Made by a program: the position numbers and the translations under genes. Shown piece by piece: positions 9,620-17,756 of a DNA stretch of 34,541 nucleotides. This stretch comes from Defluviitaleaceae bacterium (GTDB lineage: Bacteria > Bacillota > Clostridia > Lachnospirales > WRAX01): assembly GCA_009787945.1 (NCBI GenBank), contig WQSI01000003.1, forward strand, positions 1 through 34,541, in the 5' to 3' direction. A model generated the notes under the pieces. That model did no database searches, was not told the DNA's origin, and saw only the letters and a list, made by a program, of their open reading frames with translations. Positions within the stretch are counted from its first letter, which is position 1, and every line of letters starts with the position of its first letter.

Positions 9620-9963
9620 CCCTAAATTATATTTATCTTTGCCCCAAAGTTCGGGGTTGTTGGTGATGGTTATTAACATATGAACATGGTTCGGCATGAC
9701 AATATAGCAATCCAAATCCACATGGTTGTGTATTTTTGGGATGTTTTTGATGGCTTCATCAACAATTTACCATGTGGTGATAGGTACATACGGTGGCGGC
9801 TAATACCCGCCCCTACGCGGGATGGTGGGTTTTCTTCATGTTCGTTTACGATTTCCCCAAAAATATGGGCTTTGCCCTTTGTACAAATGGTGACAAAATA
9901 ACAACCTGCCTGACCATAATCATAATGCTTTAACCTAATGCCCTTCCGCCTTAACTTGCTCAT
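9620..9963 (-). pseudogene. REP-associated tyrosine transposase (RAYT/Y1_Tnp) remnant, frameshifted and truncated
   Basis: [40 protein letters not shown]..., continuing in another frame as IVDEAIKNIPKIHNHVDLDCYIVMPNHVHMLITI; PNHVHML HUH motif. Confidence 0.85.
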
Positions 9964-12900
9964 TTTGCCTTATGGGCTGTGATTATGGTGTGGCTACCTG
10001 CGTTTATGGTTATAACACAACCATCACCTGTAACATACCAATTCTTACCTTTCTTTTCAATGTTGGTCGCTGTAGCAATTTGCTCTCTACACCATTGTAC
10101 CACATCCACCCCACCCAAGTCTAGGTTTTTTCGCACCCGTTCTGAGCCAAGTTCTGTTGTTTGAAGTTTATCCAGGGGGATTTCGGGCTTTTGCGGCTCA
10201 TGCACAGGGGCTTCCCCTAAAATTCTACCAAGATATTTCCCTGTATATGAAATTTCTGTTGCCGCTACCTGCTCTGGCGTGCCTTGGGCGATGACCATAC
10301 CGCCGCCGCCGCCGCCTTCAGGCCCCATGTCAATAATATGGTCAGCGGTTTTGATAACGTCCAAATTATGCTCAATAACTATAACAGAGTTGCCCCCTTC
10401 AGCAAGCTGCTGTAAAATGTCCACAAGCTTATGAACATCCGCCATGTGCAGCCCTGTTGTTGGCTCGTCCAGCACATAAATCGTCCGCCCTGTTGACCTT
10501 TTGCTAAGCTCCGTAGCAAGCTTAACCCGCTGGGCTTCCCCTCCAGATAATGTTGTAGAGGACTGCCCAAGCTTCACATAACCCAGCCCAACATCCATAA
10601 GAGTCTGGACTTTATCCCGCAACCGCGGCAAATTTTCAAAAAAACTGTGGGCTTGCTCCACTGTCATATCAAGAACATCAGCGATTGTTGCCCCCTTATA
10701 TTTCACCTCTAAAGTTTCGCGGTTGTATCTCTTGCCGTGGCAAACCTCGCAAGGTACAAAAATATCAGGCAAAAAGTGCATTTCGATTTTGATGATGCCA
10801 TCTCCCGAACAGGCTTCGCAACGGCCGCCCTTCACATTAAACGAGAAACGCCCTTTTTGGTAGCCCCGCACCTTAGCCTCTGGCACATTGGCGAAAATAT
10901 CCCGCACAAGGTCGAAAAGCCCTGTGTATGTGGCTGGGTTTGAGCGAGGTGTGCGCCCAATGGGGCTTTGGTCTATGTTGATAATTTTGTCAAGATGCTC
11001 CTGCCCTGTTAAATCTTCATGTTTGCCTGGTTTGCCCTTGGCACGGTTTAAATCCCGCGCAAGCCGCTTGTAAAGCACTTGATTAATCAAAGAGCTTTTG
11101 CCAGAGCCGCTAACCCCAGTAATTGCAACAAAGAGCCCCAAGGGAATGTCCACATCAATATTCTTCAAATTGTTTTCTTGCGCCCCAATAATGCGTAGTT
11201 GCTTTTCGGTGACTTGTCTGCGCTCCTTAGGCACTTCAATTGCCATGCGCCCGCTCATATAAGCCCCTGTCACGCTGTTTTCATCATTTAATATGCCGTC
11301 AATGGTGCCAGAATAGACCACCTCACCGCCATGGCAGCCAGCCCCTGGCCCAATGTCCACAATATGGTCAGCTTCCCGCATGGTGTCCTCGTCATGTTCC
11401 ACCACAATCAGGGTGTTGCCTAGGTCGCGAAGGTGCTTTAAGGTCTTTAGCAGCTTGTCATTATCCCGCTGGTGAAGCCCGATAGAAGGCTCGTCCAAAA
11501 TATAAACAACACCAACAAGCCCAGAACCAATCTGGGTAGCAAGACGAATCCGCTGGGCCTCCCCTCCAGACAGGGTTGCCGCCGCCCGCGCCAAAGTAAG
11601 ATAGTCCAGCCCTACATCCACCAAAAAGCCTGCCCGCGCCTTAATCTCCTTTAGGATAAGCTCGGCAATCTGCGCTTGTTGGGGGGTCAAGGTCAGCTCG
11701 CGGAAAAACTGGGTCAGCTCCCCAACGGGCATGGTGGTAATGTCGGTAATGTTTACCCCGCCAACTGTCACTGCCAAAATCTCCTCCCGCAGACGTTTCC
11801 CGTGACAGGCAGGACATTCGATATTAGTGATAAACGCCTCATATGACTGCCTTGCGTAGTCGCTTGTGGTTTCCTTATACCGCCGCGCTAGATTATTAAC
11901 CAGCCCTTCCCACTGATGCATAAAAATCCGCGGGTTGCCCCTTGTGTCTGTATATTCAATGGGAAAAGCCTCATCCCCGCCATATAAAATAATCCTGCGG
12001 GTTTCAATAGGTATTTTTTTAAAAGGCACAAGCAGGCTGAAGTTGTAATGCTTAGCAAGATGAAGGATGAAATTCCCTCCCCAAGTGCCTGCATTCCCCG
12101 CTTGGTTGTACCCTGGGGCAACGATAGCCCCCGCCTGTATGGAAATATCAGGGTTTGGCACGATAAGCTCGGGGTCAAATTCCATTTTAAAACCAAGACC
12201 TGCACACTCTCCACAAGCCCCTTGAGGATTGTTAAAAGAGAACATTCGCGGCTCGATACTAGCAAGGGAAATGCCATGGTCAGGGCAGGCGAAGTTTTGA
12301 GAGAAACTCAAATCCTTCTCACCTCCCACATCCACCAGCAAAAGACCGTCAGTCAAAGCCATCACAGTTTCAACAGACTGGGACAGACGGGCTTCAATGC
12401 CCTTCTTCACCACAATGCGGTCAACCACAACCTCGATATTATGCCGCTTGTTTTTCTCAAGCTTTATAGGCTCGTCAAGCTCCATCACAGTGCCATTAAC
12501 GCGCACGCGGGCATAACCCTCCCGCTTTGCATCCTCAAGCACCTTCTGATGCTCCCCCTTGCGGTCACGTACCACAGGGGCAAGAAGCTGTATTCTCGAC
12601 CCTTCCTCAAGCTCCAATATCTTATCCACAATTTGGTCAACGGTCTGCCGCACAATCTCCTTACCGCATTTTGGGCAATGTGGCACACCCACCCGAGCAT
12701 AAAGCAAGCGCAGATAATCATAAATCTCCGTCACCGTTCCCACTGTGGAGCGAGGGTTCTGGTTCGTGCTTTTCTGGTCAATAGAAATGGCAGGTGACAG
12801 TCCCTCAATACTGTCCACATCAGGCTTTTCCATCTGCCCCAAAAACTGGCGGGCATAGCTGGACAAGCTCTCCATATACCGCCGCTGCCCCTCTGCATAC

Positions 12901-13040
12901 AGGGTTTCAAAAGCCAAACTGCTCTTCCCCGACCCCGAAACCCCCGTAAACACCACCATAGCATCCCGCGGTATCTCCAAGTCAATATTCTTTAAGTTGT
13001 TTTCCCTCGCACCCTTAATTATAATCTTGTTTTTTGACAT
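9960..13040 (-). CDS. uvrA: Excinuclease ABC subunit A with C-terminal extension resembling DUF3781
   Basis: [69 protein letters not shown]-terminal [20 protein letters not shown]...[27 protein letters not shown]. Confidence 0.96.
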
Positions 13041-13057: not shown

Positions 13058-13648
13058 TCATCTTTTCCAGACTATGTGTCCATTAACTCCCAATCTTTCG
13101 TATTCTTTCAGTACATTTTCAGCTAAAACCATCACGTCGTTGTCACCGAAATTTTTACCGTATTCGTAAAGCCTAATAAACATCTTTTTGCCTGTTTCGG
13201 TCTGACCTAAATTTTTCTTCCTAAAATTATGAGTGCTGCATAAAACCTGCCCATTCTCAATAACGGCTTTGCCGCCCTTGTCTTTTGGTTTTATGTGGTC
13301 GATGTGCAGTTCCTCGCCATCTTCCCTACCTTTGCCACAGATAACACACTTATAACCATCGCGCTTTAAAATATACTGTTTCTGTTTTGTGGTAAAATCC
13401 TCCAAATCCGTTCTGGTTGTTGCAAGTTCTGGGTCATAACGATACACGCCTTTTGCAACTTTAATCAAAAATCCCTCTTGATGCAACTTTCTAATCCCTC
13501 TGTCAGGGTCACGAAAAACTGTACCAACTCTAGCTTGCCATTGTGAAGTCAACCAGTCCACCGCTTCCGCATGAGGTATGTCGCGATTGGGATTTTGCAT
13601 GTAAAATTCTCTTATTAAGCCAGACTGAGTAATTTTAGTTGTTTCCAC
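13058..13648 (-). CDS. HNH endonuclease, probable type II restriction enzyme
   Basis: ILKRDGYKCVICGKGREDGEELHIDHIKPKDKGGKAVIENGQVLCSTHNFRKKN; overlaps C5 methyltransferase gene by 34 bp. Confidence 0.85.
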   Translation of the reverse strand: METTKITQSGLIREFYMQNPNRDIPHAEAVDWLTSQWQARVGTVFRDPDRGIRKLHQEGFLIKVAKGVYRYDPELATTRTDLEDFTTKQKQYILKRDGYKCVICGKGREDGEELHIDHIKPKDKGGKAVIENGQVLCSTHNFRKKNLGQTETGKKMFIRLYEYGKNFGDNDVMVLAENVLKEYERLGVNGHIVWKR

Positions 13649-14595
13649 GCTAAATCCCCCTCATCAAAATCTCTGGAATTATTTTTTCCGCCCGTAACCA
13701 AAAACTCTTTTAATTGACAAGCTATATCAGCGATTACAGGAACGGCCACACTGTTACCCATTTGCCTATACATTTGCGTCCGCGAAACCGGGATTATAAA
13801 AGACTGGGGAAAGCCCATTATTGCCTTGCATTCCCCCTCTGTCAACAATCGTATTTTATCTCCATCTTTAACAAATGTGCCTGTTAGCCTTTGTATTTTA
13901 TGGTAAGTTGAAACTAATGTTTTAACGGGGGTATCAGTGGTTTCATCCACAATCTCTGGTCTGCCGTCGTCTTTCTTAAAAAGATATTTATTAACAATAT
14001 GCTCTGACATATCGTATCCCTGTGCGTTTTTCTCGATATGCCTTCCAATGCTTTGTTGCACTGGCTTAGGCTTTATATAGTCAAATGCTTTGCCGTATTT
14101 TTTATACACGCCAACAAAATACACACGTTTTCTGTTTTGGGGAACGCCATAATCAACAGCATTTAAATCAAGGGTTGTGGTATAATACCCAATATTACCC
14201 AATTCCTCCAAAATTGATTCAAAAACCCTTCCGCCCTCAATGGTACGTATGCCCGGCACATTCTCCAAAAGAAATGCATTGGGTTTCTTCCCTTCCAATA
14301 TGCGCAAAATCTCAAAAAACAAGTTGCCTTGGGTTTCATGCCCAAAACCCTGCCTTTTACCAATTGTACTAAAAGGCTGACAAGGAAAGCCCCCTGCCAA
14401 AATATGGTGGTCTGGTATGTCCCCGGCAGAAATTTGAGTTATATCCCCATGAGGAATTTCTCCAAAGTTCGCTTGATAGGTCTGTGCCGCAAACCTATCC
14501 CACTCCGACGAAAAAACACATTCCATACCGCTTTGCTCAAAGCCAAGGCGTATGCCGCCAATGCCCGCAAAAAGGTCTATGAATTTTAAGGTCAT
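13615..14595 (-). CDS. DNA (cytosine-5) methyltransferase
   Basis: FIDLFAGIGGIRLGFEQSG, GGFPCQPFS, LLENVPGI, QNRKRVYFVG, RQMGNSVAVPV motifs. Confidence 0.95.
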   Translation of the reverse strand: MTLKFIDLFAGIGGIRLGFEQSGMECVFSSEWDRFAAQTYQANFGEIPHGDITQISAGDIPDHHILAGGFPCQPFSTIGKRQGFGHETQGNLFFEILRILEGKKPNAFLLENVPGIRTIEGGRVFESILEELGNIGYYTTTLDLNAVDYGVPQNRKRVYFVGVYKKYGKAFDYIKPKPVQQSIGRHIEKNAQGYDMSEHIVNKYLFKKDDGRPEIVDETTDTPVKTLVSTYHKIQRLTGTFVKDGDKIRLLTEGECKAIMGFPQSFIIPVSRTQMYRQMGNSVAVPVIADIACQLKEFLVTGGKNNSRDFDEGDLAWKQLKLLSLA

Positions 14596-14605
14596 GGCGT
14601 GCCTC

Positions 14606-15583
14606 CTAATACTTTACAGTTTTAGCTAAGTATGTTGCAATTTGTGCTCCACTTTTAACTTCTCTAAAACCACTTTCAATACATTCAAAATAAAGCCTAT
14701 ACCTTCCCTCATATGCCAATAAATTTTCTGTAGGAATCGCACCTGGCTCTACTTCAAAAAAGTAAAGACATCTGGCTTTTTCGTTGCTTAACATTAAATA
14801 AAATCCATCTGTAGTTACACGTTCGAAAAGAATATCAACAGAATATTTACCATGTTGCAATTTATTAGAAAAAGATGTTTCTTTTGGCACTTGCAAACCC
14901 TTAGTATGAGCAATTGAAAAAGCTTCGCTTTTCGATAAACGTTTATGAGTTCTTTGTAGGGTTAATTTAGGTGTGGTCACTTGCATCTTGGCTTCTTGGT
15001 GTAAAATTTGCAAGGCTTGGCTTATTTCTTTTGGAGTAAATCTATCAGCAAAATATTTCCTAAGAAGGTTGTTGACCAATTCTGGCGTGTTTTCTTGCCT
15101 GATAGCTTCCACATTTTTCGCAAAATTCGTCTTACTTTCAACCCATTCCTTAATTTCTACAACTTTAAAATCTTGTTTGCTAAAAAACGACACAAAATCT
15201 TCACCGTCATCACTGGGCTTCGTAAAAGATATTTCTAAATCATTATCAGCATGGTAGATATAAATTTTATCACCAATCAAAATTCCAGTTTCTATTCCTA
15301 AAAGCTTCATGTAACCAAACAGTTGTTGTTTATCTTTTTCTGTAGCTGTTTCTCTGTGGCGTTTAACTTCTACAATAAAATTATTGCCAACAAGCATGTC
15401 AATTCTAACATTTGTGTGCCCTATCGGGACGTTGTGCTGTCTTTTAATTTCTCCCATTAAAATGCTGTATCCGAAAAGCTCTGCAAAAATCTTTTCCCAG
15501 GTGGTTTCTATGGCGTTTTCTTGGGCATCAAGGTTTTCTTTGTATTTGTTTACGATTATTTCCCATTTATCAGCAGTTGTCAT
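14606..15583 (-). CDS. PD-(D/E)XK-like nuclease domain protein, probable R-M accessory component
   Basis: NVRIDMLVGNNFIVEVKRHRE (D...ExK) in a restriction-endonuclease-like context; sits between uvrB and the methyltransferase. Confidence 0.7.
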   Translation of the reverse strand: MTTADKWEIIVNKYKENLDAQENAIETTWEKIFAELFGYSILMGEIKRQHNVPIGHTNVRIDMLVGNNFIVEVKRHRETATEKDKQQLFGYMKLLGIETGILIGDKIYIYHADNDLEISFTKPSDDGEDFVSFFSKQDFKVVEIKEWVESKTNFAKNVEAIRQENTPELVNNLLRKYFADRFTPKEISQALQILHQEAKMQVTTPKLTLQRTHKRLSKSEAFSIAHTKGLQVPKETSFSNKLQHGKYSVDILFERVTTDGFYLMLSNEKARCLYFFEVEPGAIPTENLLAYEGRYRLYFECIESGFREVKSGAQIATYLAKTVKY

Positions 15584-15592
15584 GTTCTCCCC

Positions 15593-17575
15593 CTAAAGCA
15601 ACTTTTTAACTTTGAAGATTTTATCCCGCAATTGAGCTGCCCGCTCGAAATGTAAGTCCATTGCTGCTTGCTTCATGTCCTTTTCTAGGGCTTTGATGTG
15701 GACAATAAGCTCTTCGCGGTTCATGGATTCTGGGTCTTTGGCTAGTTTGCCGCCTTTTTTGGGCTTGTCGTCCACTGTGGTGGTGGCTTGGATGATGTCG
15801 TGGACTTTTTTGACGATGGTTTGGGGGGTTATGCCGTGTTTTTCGTTGTAATCTAGCTGGATGGCGCGGCGGCGCATGGTTTCTGAAATGGCATATTCCA
15901 TGGAGCGGGTGACGCGGTCAGCATACATTATAACGCGGCCGTGGGAATTTCGCGCCGCGCGGCCAATGGTCTGCACCAAGGGAGTTTCGGAGCGGAGAAA
16001 GCCCTCTTTATCTGCGTCTAAAATCGCAACCAGGGCAACTTCGGGAATGTCAAGCCCTTCCCGCAGCAGATTAATGCCTATTAGCACATCAAAAACATCC
16101 ATGCGCAAATCACGGATAATTTCAAGGCGTTCTAGGGTCTTAATGTCTGAATGAAGGTAGCGCACAGCAATGCCGCTGTTTCGCAAATATTCCGTTAAAT
16201 CTTCTGCCATGCGCTTTGTTAGGGTGGTTACAAGGGTTTTAAAGCCTGCGTCTTTGGTTTTGCGGATTTCGGTTATCAAGTCATCAATTTGCCCGTTAAT
16301 GGGGCGAACGGAAATTTCAGGGTCAACAAGCCCTGTTGGGCGGATTATTTGCTCTGCCAGAAGTTGGCTATTGTCACGCTCATAGGCGGCAGGGGTGGCA
16401 GACACAAAAAGGGCGCGCTGCATTTTCTTTTCAAATTCTTCAAAACGCAGGGGGCGGTTGTCCAAAGCAGAAGGCAGGCGGAAGCCGTAATTTACCAGGG
16501 TTTCTTTGCGGGCGCGGTCGCCGTTGTACATGCCGCGGAACTGGGGCAGGGTCACATGGCTTTCATCTACAATCACCAAAAAATCCTCTGGGAAGTAGTC
16601 CAAGAGAGTGTGGGGCGTATCCCCAGCCTTGCCCCCAGCCAAATGGCGGCTGTAATTTTCAATACCGTTGCAAAAGCCCATTTCTTGCATCATTTCAATG
16701 TCGTATCTAGTGCGCTGGGCGATTCTCTGGGCTTCAATCAGCTTATCTTCTTGTTTTAATTGGGTTATTTGCAGGGCTAATTCTTCTTCGATGTCACCAA
16801 TTGCCCGCTCTAAATTTTCCTTGGTGGTGACATAGTGAGAGCCAGGGAAAATAGAAATATGGGTGCGCACTCCAAGGGCTTCACCAGTAAATGCATCAAT
16901 TTCTGATATTTTTTCAATTTCATCCCCAAAAAACTCCACACGGTAGGCGATGCTGTCGTTTGTGGTGGGGAAAATCTCCACCACATCCCCCCGCACCCTA
17001 AATGTACCCCGCTGAAAATTTAGGTCGTTTCGGTTGTATTGGATGTCAACAAGCTTGCGCAAAACCTCATCCCTATCCCTTATCATGCCAGGGCGCAGGG
17101 AAACCACCAAATTTTTATAATCCACAGGGCTGCCAAGCCCGTAAATGCAGGAAACAGAGGCAATAATTACAACATCTTTGCGCTCTGCAATTGCCGCCGT
17201 GGCAGAGTGGCGGAGCTTGTCAATCTCGTCATTTATGGCACTGTCTTTTTCGATATAAGTGTCGCTGGAAGGCACATAAGCCTCTGGCTGGTAATAATCA
17301 TAATAACTTACAAAATATTCCACAGCGTTATTCGGGAAAAACTCTTTAAATTCGTTATAAAGCTGGGCGGCAAGGGTTTTGTTGTGCGCCATAACAATAG
17401 TGGGCATTTGCAGACGCTGGATAATATTCGCCATGGTAAAGGTTTTGCCGCTGCCCGTTACCCCGAGAAGAGTGCCGAAGCGGTCGCCTTTCTCGAAGGC
17501 ATTTACCAGGGTATCAATAGCCTGTGGCTGGTCCCCTGTCGGCTGAAAGTTGGACACAATTTCAAATTTTTCCAC
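15593..17575 (-). CDS. uvrB: Excinuclease ABC subunit B
   Basis: [58 protein letters not shown]. Confidence 0.97.
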
Positions 17576-17756
17576 GAAAACACCGCCTTAAAATGTAGTA
17601 TCCTTAATTGTACCACAAAATGCCAAAGTCCACAAGCCCTAGGCAAGAATTTTTGGGGGCATTATGTAGCTTTTTAATTTTTTGTAATTTTAGAGCAGAC
17701 TTTATTATAAAGCGCACGTATATATTAAAAACACAACTACATAGGAGGAAAAGAAG

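Follow-up and report, generated by a model that had tools for sequence, protein, structure and literature searches.

Type II restriction-modification (R-M) systems directed at CCGG include the MspI and HpaII families, whose methyltransferases M.MspI and M.HpaII share this recognition site and modify different cytosines in it (PMC11879396). Avoidance of the recognition site in genomes is caused by orthodox Type II systems and not by other types; it has been attributed to long residence of the system, and where avoidance is seen without a system, it has been taken as a sign that a system was lost (PMC4687349). Among nucleases that combine a winged helix with an HNH domain (wH-HNH), such as SruGXI and HhiV4I, those tested are N6-methyladenine (m6A)-dependent Type IV enzymes (PMC11037411). 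In chromosomal transfer hotspots, one pair of core genes flanks differing sets of accessory genes, and integration of genes inside operons is said to be rare (PMC5635113). Here we analysed a 34,541-nucleotide stretch (the window) from a Defluviitaleaceae bacterium (GCA_009787945.1; G000), in which genes for a C5-cytosine DNA methyltransferase (MTase), an HNH nuclease and a PD-(D/E)XK protein (R1) lie between the DNA-repair genes uvrB and uvrA.

We consider it probable that the space between uvrB and uvrA is an accessory hotspot that lies inside an operon and contains mainly restriction-related genes, and that it holds in G000 a Type II CCGG system plus a separately acquired R1. According to this proposal, the M.MspI-type MTase would methylate CCGG, and the winged-helix-HNH nuclease, encoded in an overlapping frame, would cut unmethylated CCGG in incoming DNA. 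R1 would be an unrelated second acquisition, possibly a modification-dependent nuclease, and all genes of the slot would be read from the uvrB promoter together with uvrA.

A restriction-related insert lies between intact uvrB and uvrA genes

The window lies in contig C3 of the G000 draft genome (1.78 Mb, 174 contigs, 78% complete). Re-reading of its open reading frames (ORFs) exactly reproduced the five genes, order, strand and gaps given in a previous sequence-only reading, and likewise supported its statements that both uvr genes are intact and that an R-M system is embedded in the uvrBA operon:

15593..17575, minus strand: uvrB, 660 aa, NCBIfam equivalog match (1073 bits), upstream edge of the slot
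14606..15583, minus strand: R1, orphan PD-(D/E)XK nuclease-like protein, 325 aa, PDDEXK_3 match
13615..14595, minus strand: C5-cytosine DNA methyltransferase of M.MspI type, 326 aa, DNA_methylase match (E 2e-89)
13058..13648, minus strand: HNH nuclease, 196 aa, HNH match (PF01844, E 1e-9)
9960..13040, minus strand: uvrA, 1026 aa, UvrA equivalog, downstream edge of the slot

Successive genes from uvrB to uvrA are spaced by 9, 10, -34 and 17 bp, the MTase and HNH genes overlapping by 34 bp. The GC content of the insert is 0.39 compared to 0.48-0.50 in uvrB and uvrA and 0.45 genome-wide, placing it at the 1.4th percentile among 700 overlapping 2.5-kb windows of the G000 genome. At third codon positions (GC3), R1 reaches 0.28, MTase and HNH 0.39 each, and uvrA and uvrB 0.53-0.54. 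Among the matches listed, the closest named relatives of UvrB are from uncultured Clostridia and Eubacteriaceae (70-73% identity). Because G011, a member of another genus, holds the MTase and HNH genes in the same slot, the insert is not an accident of assembly.

The uvrB-uvrA space is filled with differing genes in related genomes

Within the family of G000 (f1), the uvrB-uvrA space was measurable in ten genomes, with G003 measured to a uvrA fragment at a contig end, and amounted to 2552 (G000), 563, 2423, 3008, 2127, 1109, 585, 1573, 1706 and 3006 bp. Hence, it was at least 563 bp in all ten. Of 42 other named genomes in which uvrA follows downstream of uvrB, only 6 reached 500 bp, and the median was 95 bp. 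In addition to the G000 genes, the following contents were found:

G001 slot: a 168-aa orphan without Pfam match
G002 slot: R1, an R1 fragment and the 168-aa orphan
G003 slot: GNATs, a serine-hydrolase-like gene and a PDDEXK_3 gene
G005 slot: a GNAT acetyltransferase, an HpaII-type MTase, R.HpaII (PF09561, E 4e-113) and an HNH remnant
G008 slot: decayed transposase-like sequence with palindromic repeats
G011 slot: MTase and HNH
G012 slot: a single 700-aa methyltransferase-endonuclease HpaII fusion
G014 slot: the orphan and R1
G015 slot: a GNAT and a YgjV-like protein

The ten genomes thus show about seven or more distinct contents, and even congeneric species whose UvrB proteins are 94-95% identical have little slot content in common. 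This turnover bears out the suggestion of the sequence-only reading that the slot is an accessory-gene hotspot. All 21 intact genes counted in f1 slots are on the uvr strand, and the inserts are confined between the uvrB stop codon and the ribosome-binding region of uvrA; outside f1, large inserts may have mixed orientation (G050, G016). As in described transfer hotspots (PMC5635113), differing accessory genes occupy the space between the same two core genes; unlike those, the slot is part of a DNA-repair operon and shows no sign of an integrase, tRNA or att site. Specifically, there was no integrase ORF among the slot genes, no tRNA in the window and, by eye, no obvious repeat at the junctions. 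No relevant report of R-M genes in the uvrB-uvrA interval turned up in a literature search.

As a control, ruvA and ruvB were compared in f1. Five genomes have their matches about 90-210 bp apart; the distance is about 760 bp in G004 and about 1060 bp in G009, and the two genes are on different contigs in G000, G001 and G003. Repair operons other than uvr are therefore also subject to insertion or separation, but to a lesser degree than uvr.

The 168-aa orphan common to three slots (L062 3740-4246, L063 and L069; 70-83% identity) matched nothing in Pfam or PADLOC and shows, by eye, a possible E-x-E nuclease motif (YNADAW...VIEVEAGR).

The methyltransferase carries an MspI-type target-recognition domain

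As M.MspI type we define a C5 MTase with a PCQ motif and a target-recognition domain (TRD) of the MspI group, for which methylation of the outer cytosine of CCGG is predicted here. The slot MTase is full-length, with a DNA_methylase match over residues 3-296 and the PCQ motif (GGFPCQPFS) at about residue 72. It is 55% identical over 97% of its length to the MTase of plasmid pMsp22 (Acinetobacter NEB149), which also encodes an endonuclease annotated as 'MspI family' adjoining its MTase. Judging from the annotation and the plasmid name, we take the pMsp22 enzyme to be M.MspI itself. A Lactococcus MTase whose gene accompanies that of an HpaII-family enzyme is 57% identical. In the TRD core (residues 203-245), 33 of 43 positions (77%) are identical to the pMsp22 MTase, compared to 52% in the catalytic part, and identity to HpaII-type TRDs is 9-12%. 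Because the MTase carries an M.MspI-type TRD, its target is predicted to be CCGG.

The locus thus resembles MspI/HpaII Type II systems in its MTase, which is 55-60% identical to the pMsp22 enzyme and relatives and has the same TRD and predicted target, and in that an HpaII system itself fills the same slot in G005 and G012. It differs in its nuclease, which combines a winged helix with HNH and is not related to the MspI, HpaII and BsaWI-like partners found elsewhere. Besides the G011 copy, the closest relative of the MTase is from G095 (68% identity; L263, G095:C13). The G095 gene starts right at the stop codon of valS, and the gene after it encodes a 185-aa protein with weak similarity to BsaWI (W/CCGGW; E 0.002), so that here too an R-M pair sits behind a housekeeping gene.

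The HNH nuclease is found directly behind methyltransferases of two families

The HNH protein consists of an N-terminal winged-helix-like domain and an HNH domain. Its single-sequence fold was confident for residues 1-76 only, and winged-helix matches in the PDB were all weak. In the G011 slot, its homologue (73% identity) again accompanies the MTase (76%), without R1. More distant relatives on a Calditerrivibrio plasmid (55%) and on a phage contig with portal and capsid genes (62%; L182 4166-5588) overlap, or immediately follow, an N6_N4-type MTase with a TSPPY motif. This phage pair is placed between head genes. In a 399-genome sample of the phylum, no relative beyond G000 was detected at E <= 1e-25.

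In all four intact contexts the HNH gene therefore lies directly behind an intact MTase gene, a C5 MTase in two genera and a non-homologous N6_N4 MTase on plasmid and phage. Since it is kept beside MTases of two unrelated families, the HNH protein behaves like a Type II restriction enzyme, and the arrangement of an adjacent MTase and an independent endonuclease is that of a Type II system. On gene context, we regard MTase and HNH as one unit and predict that HNH is the cognate restriction endonuclease; cutting of CCGG would follow from the target of the partner MTase.

Alternatively, HNH could be a modification-dependent Type IV enzyme of the wH-HNH group that cuts methylated foreign DNA, leaving the MTase as an orphan. 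It shares with SruGXI-like enzymes (PMC11037411) the combination of winged helix and HNH in one chain, albeit with weak PDB matches, and the best PADLOC model for the MTase is 'orphan methyltransferase'. However, the HNH protein has 196 aa compared to 224-283 aa in the described enzymes, and its constant pairing with an intact MTase of either family in four contexts does not fit an enzyme that acts alone. Moreover, Type IV systems are not the usual cause of site avoidance (PMC4687349), yet CCGG is nearly absent from G000 (see below). We thus regard a Type IV role as improbable.

CCGG is strongly avoided in genomes with a CCGG-type slot methyltransferase

In a 400-kb sample of G000, CCGG was observed 15 times compared to 1052 expected (observed/expected ratio (o/e) 0.014, z -43), making it the second lowest of all 256 tetramers, while its o/e is 0.97 in pooled other Clostridia. 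G000 thus avoids the site predicted for its MTase, as is typical of an orthodox Type II system. CCGG avoidance was compared with slot content: where the slot holds a CCGG-type MTase, o/e values were 0.01 (G000), 0.02 (G011), 0.04 (G005) and 0.20 (G012), compared to 0.05, 0.54, 0.59, 0.70, 0.86 and 0.86 in six genomes without one (p = 0.0095). Avoidance in G011 was the strongest after G000. Other four-base palindromes are also strongly avoided in G000, among them GATC (o/e 0.007; 0.01-0.46 across f1 and 0.99 in other Clostridia) and GGCC (0.13).

Several points weigh against a hotspot that holds a CCGG-cutting Type II system. The Fisher test on the enlarged uvrB-uvrA space (p = 5e-7) overstates independence, as f1 members share ancestry. 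The CCGG target predicted for HNH derives from its C5 partner; on phage and plasmid the partner is an N6_N4 MTase, and CCGG is not clearly depleted on these elements (55 seen and 42 expected; 3 seen and 4.4 expected). Finally, G001 avoids CCGG (o/e 0.05), and no C5 MTase was found in its 85% complete assembly; avoidance alone is therefore no proof of an active present system.

R1 is a module separate from the methyltransferase-HNH unit

The N-terminus of R1 matches PDDEXK_3 (E 5e-7; 30.5 bits, cut-off 22), and the residues of its catalytic block (D62, E72-x-K74, Q87 and Y91) are invariant in an alignment of five homologues. Like GxxExxY/PDDEXK_3 proteins, R1 passes the cut-off of this family; unlike them, it carries an extra C-terminal domain and remains below the cut-off of TIGR04256 (GxxExxY; 30.6 bits, cut-off 35). 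The C-terminal domain of about 110 aa has no Pfam match, and in G150 it is fused ahead of a McrA-like HNH domain that matches PDB 6ghc, deposited as a 5-methylcytosine-specific restriction enzyme (E 0.002). The single-sequence fold of R1 was unusable (pLDDT 39).

R1 is rare. It was found in 7 of 295 genomes of the order, a 391-genome sample of the class yielded G000 plus two weak partial matches only, and no relatives were found in plasmids, phages or viral contigs. Relatives outside the slot are solitary, on the same strand as the upstream gene and just past its stop codon, behind genes that we named from their translations (a DEAD-box helicase gene in G001, a phosphatidyltransferase gene in G041 and hisD in G191). 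The G191 relative (L175 4599-5667, G191:C23) is split into two frames directly behind hisD in the his operon.

The sequence-only reading had treated the three inserted genes as one R-M cassette. In such a cassette, R1 could be the restriction enzyme and HNH a nicking or repair helper (Vsr-like). Their tight gaps and common strand, and a PD-(D/E)XK motif as in many Type II enzymes, would agree with this. However, each part occurs without the other: G011 has MTase and HNH without R1 and strongly avoids CCGG, and R1 occurs without the MTase of the unit in five other places (G002, G014, G001:C11, G041 and G191). GC3 also differs between R1 and the two other genes. R1 probably does not cut plain CCGG, because G002 has R1 together with 508 CCGG sites in 200 kb, and neither an MspI- nor an HpaII-type MTase was found there. 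A single three-gene cassette therefore appears highly improbable; judged by gene distribution, R1 is a module separate from the MTase-HNH unit and may, with low confidence, have a DNA- or modification-sensing role.

The insert is likely transcribed from the uvrB promoter

One further feature bears on expression of the gene row:

17597..17634 (approximate), minus strand: promoter-like region, TTGTGG-17-TACAAT, found by eye, similar in G001 and G002

This predicted promoter likely serves the whole row, and, going by gene spacing alone, co-transcription of the slot genes from it is likely. A second promoter-like match inside the row, ahead of HNH (13845-13817, 11 of 12 positions), is not kept in G011 and was not used as evidence.

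A tighter link would be one in which SOS or damage raises restriction along with UvrAB; possible coupling of restriction to excision repair had been proposed in the sequence-only reading. The same strand, the tiny gaps, the junctions without a clear terminator and the co-direction of all intact f1 slot genes are in line with it. However, none of 17 genomes searched showed a LexA-type box (one mismatch allowed) in the 400 bp ahead of uvrB, leaving SOS induction unsupported, and selection for uvrA expression also explains the strand bias. Such regulatory coupling therefore seems unlikely.

The methyltransferase gene retains CCGG sites

Three CCGG sites are located in the MTase gene itself:

13788..13791: CCGG site
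14253..14256: CCGG site
14423..14426: CCGG site

Hence, 3 of the 15 sites of the 400-kb sample fall in this 981-bp gene (binomial p = 7e-6), while the MTase copy of G011 has none. Because these sites are unpurged, the MTase appears to be a late arrival: the G000 copy probably came from a non-avoiding genome, after CCGG avoidance was set. In G005, an HNH remnant of 114 aa, missing the catalytic core, lies beside the HpaII system. Together with this remnant, the HpaII systems in the G005 and G012 slots and the late MTase copy suggest serial replacement of CCGG systems in the slot.

A fixed ancestral arrangement that was lost in some relatives, instead of repeated gain, would account for an HNH gene beside uvrA in three genera, one of them the remnant without HNH core, and for CCGG avoidance without an MTase in G001. 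The sequence-only reading had named broad conservation as a finding that would overturn it; the comparison across relatives showed a slot that is always filled in f1, but with differing genes. Since the same slot holds HpaII systems, GNAT genes, the 168-aa orphan, R1 or a decayed transposase in relatives, and the three unpurged sites and low GC3 of the MTase gene point to later arrival, we consider ancestral fixation doubtful.

Next to the slot, UvrA is fused at its C-terminus to DUF3781 (residues 956-1023, E 1e-24), as is UvrA of G001, while UvrA of G002 and other f1 members ends at about residue 942; elsewhere, DUF3781 is a short stand-alone ORF. A further short ORF (9673-9963, minus strand), which overlaps the uvrA stop codon, has no Pfam match and by eye resembles the decayed transposase-like sequence of the G008 slot, where GTAGGGGCGGC palindromes also occur.

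Discussion

The components of the insert are of known kinds, and the main interest lies in an intra-operon hotspot with repeated CCGG systems. In every readable f1 member this repair operon is filled, mostly with restriction-related genes, despite the rarity ascribed to insertion into operons (PMC5635113). We tentatively propose, as a possibility that goes beyond a hotspot with a CCGG system in G000, that the slot is a dedicated defence site in the repair operon, in which unrelated CCGG isoschizomers (MspI-type MTase with HNH, and HpaII) swap in place. If true, specificity would stay while enzymes change, and the old CCGG avoidance, the HNH remnant in G005 and a new MTase gene with CCGG sites would be the traces of replacement. 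Two questions arise from this: does a resident methylation pattern favour the gain of a further system with matching specificity, and does the placement of restriction genes in a repair operon bring a benefit beyond a borrowed promoter? Our analysis further predicts that HNH enzymes which cut CCGG exist as a new family.
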